From the NCBI GenBank assembly GCA_016219175.1, contig JACRCD010000093.1, positions 1 through 64,000 on the forward strand: a stretch of DNA of 64,000 nucleotides. Reading direction: 5' to 3'. Positions 2,442-20,786 of the stretch are shown piece after piece. The stretch comes from Deltaproteobacteria bacterium (GTDB lineage Bacteria > Desulfobacterota > Desulfobulbia > Desulfobulbales > SURF-16). A model generated the notes under the pieces. The model saw nothing but the letters and a program-made list of their open reading frames with translations, was not told the origin of the DNA and searched no databases. Position 1 is the first letter of the stretch. Every line of letters begins with the position of its first letter. The position numbers were made by a program, and so were the translations under genes.

Positions 2442-3989
2442 ATGAATCGTCACTTACCCATCATTCTTGCAATCTTATTTTTCATCTTTCCAGCCCCCTT
2501 TTCAGCCGCTAAAACGACGGGGGAATTTAACCTTTATTATACCAATGACGTACATGGAGAAACAGAGCCCTGCGGCTGAAAATCAAAACAATTGGGCGGT
2601 CTGTCCAAAAGAAAAACTCTCTTAAAAGAATCCGGATTCCAAGAAACGCAGGATCTGTTGCTTGATGCCGGCGCTCTCCTGTTTGACAATAGCGCGCTGT
2701 CTGCCGGCCGCGAGGAAGAGCAGGCCAGGATAAATGCCCAAGGCCTGGTTGAGGCGTACAACCTGCTGGGCTACGAGGCTGTGGGTATTTCCACAATTGA
2801 TCTGCTGGCCGGTATCGATTTTTTGCAGCAGCTGCATGAAAAATCGATTTTCCCCTGGCTCAGCGCCAACCTGGTCCATCCGGAAAGCAAACAACCTTTT
2901 TTCACTCCATACATTCTCAAAGAGAAAAATGGGCTTCGCATAGCGATAATCGGCATCACCGGCACCGAGCCGAAATATGGGGCCAGGGGACAGGAGAAAT
3001 ATCTGATACTGCCATGGCGTGACGTGTTACCTAAACTTCTCGAAGAACTTCGAGGCAAGGCCGATGTATATATCTTACTGTCAAGTGAGTCGAAACAGGA
3101 AAATCAGCTGATTGCAAAGGATTTCAACAATATCCATATAATCATCCAATCAGGCACGAACGCCCACAATGAAAATCCCGTGCTTACCAACAACACACTG
3201 ATCTGCCAGACGGAAAAACAGGGTAAATACCTTGGCAAGATGCGCATTAACTGGAACAGCTCCGCTATCTGGGCCAACAAATCAATAGATACCGCGGTTT
3301 TGCAGAAACAGGAATACGACAGGATCGCCTGGCAGATAAAAAGGCTGCAAGAAAAAGGTGATCCGGAACAAGTTTATAAGGATAAACCGGCAACATTAAA
3401 AGCATATTACAAACTTGCCGAACGGATGAAAATTCTTGAGGAAGAGACCCGCAAGCAGCAAACGGGGAAAAACCAGGCAACTGAAAATGCCACCTTTGAA
3501 CATAATTTTCTTGAGGTAGAGCCAACCATTGCCGATGATCCGACCATCGAAAAAATTACCAAGGAAACAAAAAATAAAATAAATGCCATCGGCAGAAAAG
3601 AGAGCAGAGACAACACCATCCAGCCCGACCATGTGGGCAGTCAGGCCTGCATGAGCTGCCATGAAGAAATCGCCAAACGGTGGCAGTTGACTCCCCATGC
3701 CCGCGCGTATGAAACCTTGGTTAAAAAAGATCAGCAATTCAATGCCAATTGCCTCCCCTGTCACGTTACAGGCATAAGCATGGAAGATAAGAACAAATCC
3801 CTGTCCTTGCCCGACACCTTGCATAACGTTGGCTGCGAGAGCTGCCATGGCCCGGGGAAAAAGCACGTGGAAAATCCTGAAAAATGGAAACTGAATGGTC
3901 TGCCCGGGAAACCGCTCTGTCTGCAGTGTCATCTGCCCGAGCATGATGACTCGTTTGATTACGACAAAGACAGTAAGCTTGTTCATTAA
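2442..3989 (+). CDS. UshA-like selenoprotein fused to a tetrahaem cytochrome domain (in-frame UGA = Sec46)
   Basis: Reading from the ATG at 2442 and decoding the TGA at 2577-2579 as selenocysteine gives a 515-residue secreted protein. Residues 1-23 form a signal peptide. Residues 31-46 hold the 5'-nucleotidase/UshA-type start 'YYTNDVHGE' followed by TEPCG-U, where relatives have Cys, so C44-G-U46 is a likely redox pair. Only D36 and H38 of the usual metallophosphatase ligands are evident; GNH(E/D) and GHxH motifs are not visible, so phosphoesterase activity is doubtful. The C-terminus has four CxxCH haem motifs at C403, C437, C465 and C493, like cytochrome c554. An ORF search that stops at UGA would begin this gene at 2592 and lose the signal peptide and active site. 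It follows rarA by 13 nt. A close family is known as UshA-like (seleno)proteins; the substrate is unknown. Confidence 0.85.
2577..2608 (+). promoter_or_regulatory. Sec UGA codon with bacterial SECIS-like hairpin
   Basis: After the UGA at 2577-2579 a stem forms between 2592-2596 (UUGGG) and 2604-2608 (UCCAA), with a 7-nt apical loop CGGUCUG at 2597-2603. The GGUCU of the loop starts 18 nt after the UGA, the same spacing and loop sequence that I recall for the E. coli fdhF SECIS recognised by SelB. The pairing is seen in the sequence; the function is inferred and agrees with selB being present in this window. Confidence 0.75.
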
Positions 3990-4368: not shown

Positions 4369-5298
4369 TTAACAGCCGAATGCCTTCTGCAGGTTGGGAA
4401 TGGTTTGTTTCTTGCGGCTCATCATGCCATCAATCCACATGGAGTTGCCGGAAAGTTTCGAGTTGAAGGCCTTCTCAATGAGAGAAGCGTCATCGGAGAT
4501 AACCATGAGGTCGGTTCCTTCCTTGACAACATCGGTAAGCATCAGCAGCACGGAGTGACGTCCGTCAGCTTTGACCTTCTGCATTTCCGCGTACAGGGCA
4601 TCACGCAAGGAAGCAACCTGGTCAAGGGTGGCAAGTTCAAGCTGGCCAACCCCGACTTTACTGCCTTTCATGTCGAAATCCTTATAATCCCGGAAAAGAA
4701 GATCCTTGGGCGGTACACCCGCAACCGCGGATTTTGCCTTGAGCATTTCCATGAACAGTTCATCCATGTCGCTGACGCCGGCGACTTTGGCGAGATCCGC
4801 GCAGGCAGCCTTATCGGCATCGGTGCAGGTCGGTGATTTAAAGTTTACGGTATCGCTCAGAATTGCGGCGAGCATTATCCCGGCAATGTTCTTCGGAATT
4901 GCAATGCCGCTACTCTTATACATCTCATTTAATACCGTGCATGTACAGCCTACCGGCTGGGCATTGAAATAAATTGGGTTATTGGTGGTGATATCACCAA
5001 TTTTATGATGATCAACAACGGCGACAAGTTCTGCCTTCATTATATTAGCAGGGGCCTGGGCAATATCACTGTGGTCAACCAGGGCGATTTTTTTGCCTTC
5101 AGCGTCACTGATCTTTTCGGGCGCAGTCAAGCCGAAACGGGCTAGTACGGTTTTGCTTTCGGGGTTTAAAGCCGCGGCATCGGTCTGCATGCAGGCGATA
5201 GCGTCCTGGCCCTTGGCCTTCAAGTAATTTGCAAAAGAAATTGCCGAGGCAACGGAATCGGTATCTGGATTTGAGTGGCCAACTACACAAATAGACAT
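4369..5298 (-). CDS. ppaC: Manganese-dependent inorganic pyrophosphatase
   Basis: A 309-residue DHH-family (class II) inorganic pyrophosphatase that hydrolyses PPi in the cytoplasm. It has GHSNPDTDS at residues 7-15, the DHS at 75-77, the DHH signature at 96-98, and an SRKKQ active-site segment near the C-terminus. The length matches the two-domain form without CBS insert. A strong Shine-Dalgarno AAGGAGG lies 8 nt before the ATG. It is monocistronic, with repeat A and a bidirectional terminator behind it. Confidence 0.95.
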   Translation of the reverse strand: MSICVVGHSNPDTDSVASAISFANYLKAKGQDAIACMQTDAAALNPESKTVLARFGLTAPEKISDAEGKKIALVDHSDIAQAPANIMKAELVAVVDHHKIGDITTNNPIYFNAQPVGCTCTVLNEMYKSSGIAIPKNIAGIMLAAILSDTVNFKSPTCTDADKAACADLAKVAGVSDMDELFMEMLKAKSAVAGVPPKDLLFRDYKDFDMKGSKVGVGQLELATLDQVASLRDALYAEMQKVKADGRHSVLLMLTDVVKEGTDLMVISDDASLIEKAFNSKLSGNSMWIDGMMSRKKQTIPNLQKAFGC

Positions 5299-18869: not shown

Positions 18870-20786
18870 TTAGTTTTTTGACCGCAGCACACGCTTGTCG
18901 CCGACCCGCAGAGTCAGCTTGATCTTATCGAAATATTCGAGAAGGGGGATGGAAAATTTTCTGGTCAACCCGGTCATATCCTTGAACCGGGGCGCATCGA
19001 TATCCCCTTCCTTTAATAAATAACCCAGGAGTTTCTCCTGCAGTTCCGCCAGTGTTCTGGTATGAAAATAAAAATCATTGGTCACCTTGGTGATCACCCC
19101 GTCCTTGACAAGAAGGCTTAACACCTCCATCAGCAACGGTTGAGAAACATCAGGGAAAGCGCTGTATACCTCTTTCATGGTCGGCGCGGAAAGACCGCCA
19201 TCGGCAAAGAGCCTGTCCATCTTTTCCCTGATCTCCTTTTCATTGGCCCGCAGGGAAACCTGATGTCCTGCCAGGCGGACAATTCCCTCCTCCAGGACAA
19301 TGATGCCTTTTTTGCCCAAATCGGTCAGACACAACTGAAAAAGCCTCATCCCCAGTCCCTTCTGCAGCCGACTCCGTAATTCTTCCTTGGGCAAACCGGG
19401 TTTCAAAGGACTTTCCCTGTGATAGGCAGTGACAATATCAGTAATTTTTTTCAGGAGAGCCGCATAGACATCTTCCGCGACAAAAAGCTGTTTTTCCGAA
19501 TCAACAACAACCACACTGCGGGAAGAAATCGGGCCATTCATCAACTTCTTGAACCGATTACCGAAACAACCCATTTTCACGGAAAGCTCTGGGCCAGTTA
19601 GGCCATCCAAGCCGCTTTCCCGCAACAGCAGAAGAACAAGATCTTCCTGGGTGCCATTGTGGTACAGGGAAAAAATCCGGCTGTTTTCCTCCTTGAAACG
19701 TTTCCGCTTCGGGGCGGAGTTGTTGACGATCACCCCGCCGCCTATTGTCGTCACCGGTGAATATCTGCGGACCACATAATGATCACCGGGCCAGACCCCC
19801 ACAGGCTCTTCAAGCAGGAGCTGGACATTAGCGGATTTTCCCGGAGCCAGCTCCTCTTCTTCGAGCAGAACCACCCGGCCCATGATCTCGGCCGTGCCAA
19901 GATGAACACGCACCCTTGCCCTGTTTTTTAAAGGCTTGTCGTTTGACGAAAGAAAAAGAAATTCAGCATCAAGCATATAGGAGGGTTTCAGGCAGCCCGG
20001 AGTGGCCAGGACATTTCCCCGCTCCAGCATCTCCATTTCCAGCCCTTGAATATTTATGGCCGTCCGATTTCCTGCCTCCACAAGCTCAACGCTTTGACCG
20101 TGCACCTGAATGCCGCGGATTTTTCCTTCAAGCTCGCCGGGATAAACCATGATATCGTCTCCCACGGCAACCCGCCCGGAAAGAGACGTTCCCGTTACCA
20201 CGGCGCCAAAACCCTTCATACTGAAAATACGGTCAATGGCCAGCCGGAAAGGGCCATAGGCCTCGGCAAATTCACAGGACGAAACAAGTTTGTCCAGGGT
20301 GTGGCGCGCTTCGTCAATACCCTCGCCGGTGGTGGAAGAAACCATGACCAAAGGCGCCTCGGCCAAAAAACTGTCGGAAAAAAAACTCCGGACCTCTTCC
20401 ACGACAAGCGCGAGCCAGTCAGCTTCCACCATATCTTTTTTGGTGATGATGATAAGACCCTTTTTCACGCCAAGGAGACGGCATATTTCAAAGTGCTCCC
20501 TGGTCTGCGGCATGATTCCTTCGTCCGCGGCAATGACAAAAGCCACCAGATCAATGCCTGTTACCCCGGCCACCATATTTTTTACAAAACGCTCATGGCC
20601 GGGAACATCAATAATACCAAGACGATGACCGCAAGGCAGATCAAGATAGGCAAAACCCAGTTCAATGGTGATGCCGCGTTCTTTCTCTTCCTTGAGACGG
20701 TCGGTATCGATACCGGTCAGCGCCCTGACAAAGCTGGTCTTGCCATGGTCTACATGGCCGGCCGTTCCCAGTACGATCTCACGCAT
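18870..20786 (-). CDS. selB: Selenocysteine-specific elongation factor SelB
   Basis: A 638-residue GTPase that brings Sec-tRNA to UGA codons followed by a SECIS hairpin. Residues 10-17 are GHVDHGKT, 60-64 DVPGH, 115-118 TKKD, all within an EF-Tu-like G domain with '[14 protein letters not shown]'. Domains II-III follow, and the C-terminal third is the winged-helix array that binds SECIS RNA. Length fits the family (about 615-640). Its start is 2 nt from the stop of the MBL gene. selA, selD and tRNA-Sec are not in the window. Confidence 0.95.

Follow-up and report, generated by a model that had tools for sequence, protein, structure and literature searches.

A gene that very probably encodes a UshA-like tetrahaem selenoprotein lies at 2442-3989 on the plus strand of the window, i.e., the whole stretch of 64,000 nucleotides that was analysed. 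It is located between rarA/mgsA (plus strand, 1115-2428) and an inorganic-pyrophosphatase-like DHH/DHHA2 gene (minus strand, 4369-5298). The frame starts with ATG at 2442, is closed by a TAA ending at 3989, and is otherwise open except for a single in-frame TGA at 2577-2579. Read-through translation gives a product of 515 aa, in which the TGA read as Sec completes the motif C44-G-U46. Under the standard code, the sole listed ORF at the locus starts with TTG and spans 2592-3989 (465 aa). A conventional ORF caller would thus cut 50 residues off the protein, including the signal peptide and the CGU site, a truncation that the first-pass annotation had anticipated. The coordinates it gave for the frame and the TGA proved exact.

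The product begins with a hydrophobic leader, followed by the family motif and a 5'-nucleotidase/SoxB-like domain, which a helical linker connects to a cytochrome c554-like domain. The leader, MNRHLPIILAILFFIFPAPFSA (2442-2507, plus strand), was recognised by eye and is a putative signal peptide. The family motif, NDVHGETEPCGUKSKQLGG (2547-2600, plus strand), was delimited from the sequence and an alignment of relatives, and profile comparison places the UshA/SoxB-like (5'-nucleotidase N-terminal) domain, which has a degenerate metal site, at 2526-3263 on the same strand. The tetrahaem domain (3645-3938, plus strand) is defined by a C-terminal cytochrome c554 profile match and four CXXCH haem sites. 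Together with the NCBIfam match described below, these features bear out the earlier description of the gene as a UshA-like domain joined to a tetrahaem cytochrome. An AlphaFold model of the protein, built from the lone sequence, was unusable (pLDDT 35.6, pTM 0.21) and was set aside.

The protein matches NCBIfam NF041198, “UshA-like (seleno)protein”, with 600.3 bits against a curated cut-off of 275. The match runs across the TGA and covers essentially the whole model (protein residues 10-507 on model positions 5-518 of 519), and the family's PCGU/PCGC motif, encoded with an in-frame TGA or a Cys codon, is found here as PCGU with TGA. This family has been catalogued since 2008, when the Global Ocean Sampling survey reported 76 Sec sequences of COG0737 UshA-like proteins with a CxU motif and, with regard to conserved Cys-based redox motifs, named UshA-like as one of the exceptions (PMC2398784). 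The CxU form of the UshA-like protein also appears in a 2022 review (PMC9312934) and, as NF041198, in a 2026 review (PMC13188914). Since NF041198 is a published CxU selenoprotein family, the window gene belongs to an already known kind and is a sound, ordinary new member of it. It shares with NF041198 (UshA_like_PCGU) the full-length match, the PCGU motif, the TGA at that motif and the C-terminal haem domain; nothing essential differs, and the window protein happens to retain H38 of the old DxH motif.

The nearest other families are more distant. NF049981, UshA_like_Sel_2, belongs to the same UshA-like fold family, but the window protein scores 52.5 bits against its cut-off of 140 and has CxU where NF049981 is given as CxxU (PMC13188914). 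SoxB (TIGR04486) and UshA (PRK09558) are related in sequence across the N-terminal domain, but the window protein falls far under their cut-offs (55.5 of 550 bits for SoxB and 54.8 of 600 for UshA), has lost most of the metal ligands, and has gained the Sec motif and the haem domain.

Frames that stay open through a TGA are not in themselves unusual. Requiring 35 or more open codons on both sides of the TGA and 150 or more in total, we counted 65 of them in the window, and the others, when viewed by eye, were chance-like candidates only. The hairpin of the window gene taken alone is also unexceptional in stability (z -1.28 vs shuffles; p 0.32 vs synonymous recoding). The case for Sec therefore rests on family evidence. 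Chance frames of this sort, together with the conventional ORF call of 2592-3989 alone, are what could be said for a pseudogene or a sequencing error, in which the TGA would be a true terminator or stand for a misread TGC or TGT, or translation would restart at TTG 2592. Against this, the rest of the frame is intact, the same TGA and hairpin recur in many independent genomes of a Sec-using lineage, and the genome holds the whole Sec machinery; we regard such an explanation as very improbable.

The phylum scan covered 297 genomes, and at a threshold of E 1e-30 the family was matched in 140 of them; a single in-frame TGA is present in most of the strong matches. Among 36 motif-bearing genes compared at the Sec position, the codon is TGA in 33 and TGC or TGT in three (L176-L178), which accordingly have CGC instead of CGU. 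Aligning 27 relatives showed G39, E40, G45, G52 and G53 to be invariant, and P43, C44 and residue 46 to be nearly so. Homologues were checked for Cys or Sec at position 46, and with U counted as C, both C44 and position 46 are kept in 26/27. The claim that Sec occupies the second place of a Cys-Gly-Cys/Sec motif is thus matched by relatives carrying TGA, TGC or TGT there. The exception in the alignment is L041:4-1548, a full-length tetrahaem member in which PSGR replaces PCGU, so that both redox residues (S and R in their place) and the TGA are gone.

Some variants of the motif were observed beside the PCGU type. The loci L193, L194, L196, L198, L201, L204 and L205 have PC-x-x-U in place of PCGU and possibly represent the CxxU subfamily of NF049981, judging by the motif; several genomes hold both types. 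The window's own genome has a second UshA-like relative on another contig (L002:1312-2529, minus strand, contig C94), which is haem-less, scores 154 bits and thus stays below the NF041198 cut-off, has MCGG where PCGU is expected, and has no TGA in its frame.

Immediately after the UGA, folding and family comparison identify a SECIS-type hairpin at 2592-2608 on the plus strand (UUGGGC-GGUCU-GUCCAA), with the stem at 2592-2597/2603-2608 and the apical loop at 2598-2602. The stem starts 12 nt and the GGUCU loop 18 nt after the UGA. The SECIS of E. coli fdhF has the same loop and the same spacing. As the hairpin sequence also encodes the protein-conserved LGGL, synonymous recoding is the proper null. 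Overall fold energy was uninformative against this null (mean z -0.23), and we used a register-specific test, scoring in 33 Sec genes the best stem that closes a 4-7-nt loop beginning 17-21 nt after the UGA. The stems averaged 6.1 bp, compared with 3.8 bp after recoding, and all 300 recoded sets fell short of the observed mean. Stems of at least 5 bp were present in 91% of the Sec genes, compared with 19% under recoding. At the second Gly, 29 of the 33 use GGT, a codon whose usage across the same genes is 17%. The synonymous null ignores kinship among the sequences, and as these are related, the binomial value of 1e-18 for this test set is not to be taken literally. In the three Cys forms, the corresponding stems are 4, 4 and 2 bp. 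The excess over recoding and the contrast with the Cys forms point the same way, i.e., to a family-wide hairpin that is maintained beyond protein constraint.

The genome from which the window derives is 98.4% complete and contains the full set of Sec genes. The window itself carries selB, the Sec-specific elongation factor, on its minus strand (18870-20786; 365 bits, cut-off 242), in agreement with the first-pass annotation. A check of the rest of the genome for selA, selD and tRNA-Sec found all three: tRNA-Sec scores 68.9 bits against a gathering score of 47, selA 619 bits and selD 376 bits (L026:1501-2427, contig C88). The selD frame itself contains one in-frame TGA, and SelD of this genome is therefore probably also a selenoprotein.

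This gene set also bears on whether the UGA could be read as another residue, e.g., Trp or through a reassigned code. We found no support for such a reading, and the residue that replaces Sec in the relatives L176-L178 is Cys (TGC/TGT), the hairpin is confined to TGA genes, and tRNA-Sec, selA, selB and selD are all in the genome; we regard it as extremely improbable. The family match across the TGA, the TGA/TGC/TGT pattern in relatives and the family-wide hairpin under the synonymous null place the reading of UGA as Sec well above chance. Collectively, and with the complete Sec gene set, they uphold the selenoprotein proposed at first pass as well as its SECIS-type hairpin with a GGUCU loop and 12/18-nt spacing, and we are highly confident that UGA 2577-2579 encodes Sec. 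The hairpin right after the UGA, acting with SelB and tRNA-Sec, would direct the ribosome to insert Sec at position 46, and the product would be exported and bear four c-type haems. We are equally confident in the overall assignment as a member of the UshA_like_PCGU family with SECIS-directed Sec46, predicted export and four predicted c-type haems.

The metal-ligand positions were placed by aligning the family profile to solved 5'-nucleotidases. At positions 36, 38, 78, 118, 215 and 238, the window protein has D, H, A, T, S and G, compared with D, H, D, N, H and H, so that only two of the six dinuclear metal ligands (D36 and H38) are kept, and A78, T118, S215 and G238 are substituted. Across the family, 23/27 members keep 0-2 of the six ligands; of the other four, one has three ligands and the rest have four. 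The NDVHGE segment, described at first pass as the family start, does not constitute a working phosphatase site, as most metal ligands are gone and H38 is unconserved, being present in just 2/27 relatives. An enzyme that is a selenoprotein and still a metal-dependent phosphoesterase or thiosulfohydrolase of UshA/SoxB type, with Sec aiding catalysis or binding metal, would be consistent with the sequence kinship to 5'-nucleotidases and SoxB, with D36 and H38 in the window protein, and with the three or four ligand positions kept by 4/27 relatives, which show that metal loss is not universal. Nevertheless, the four substitutions and the rarity of H38 make it unlikely.

Since most of the ligands are missing from the window protein, as from the majority of its relatives, it is more likely to be a redox protein built on a phosphatase scaffold no longer in use. 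The loss of ligands alongside conservation of G39, E40, G45, G52, G53 and CGU further argues for redox function; in most members, redox chemistry at Cys44/Sec46 may have taken the place of a lost phosphoesterase chemistry. Cys44 and Sec46 could act as a selenenylsulphide/selenolthiol pair or provide a selenolate nucleophile, and electrons would pass to or from the protein's own tetrahaem domain. As the 2008 survey treats UshA-like proteins as an exception where conserved Cys-based redox motifs are concerned, the redox reading is our own proposal, and we consider it about as likely as not that the protein is a redox enzyme devoid of phosphatase activity. The same even balance applies to the evolutionary scenario, in which the metal site of a periplasmic metallophosphatase decayed while CxU arose on the same loop, giving a self-contained selenothiol oxidoreductase wired to the tetrahaem domain. 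The family is widespread among Sec-using bacteria, and ligand loss, CGU gain and tetrahaem fusion together suggest a phosphatase scaffold turned redox enzyme. This idea was not found in the papers examined, which for the family give just the name and the motif (PMC2398784, PMC9312934, PMC13188914). Based on the kinship to SoxB, our guess would be that the substrate is a small oxidised sulphur or similar periplasmic compound.

Gene neighbourhoods were searched for a hint of the substrate and yielded none. The arrangement of rarA/mgsA, family gene and DHH/DHHA2 gene is conserved at the level of the order in several genomes, and outside the same order the family gene adjoins unrelated genes. Four genomes, all from one other family (L215-L218), have next to the family gene a gene that encodes both multihaem cytochrome and cytochrome b561 domains; a DUF1684 gene is close by. 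Such a multihaem/cytochrome b561 membrane protein gene next door is only a correlation, but it fits a redox role.
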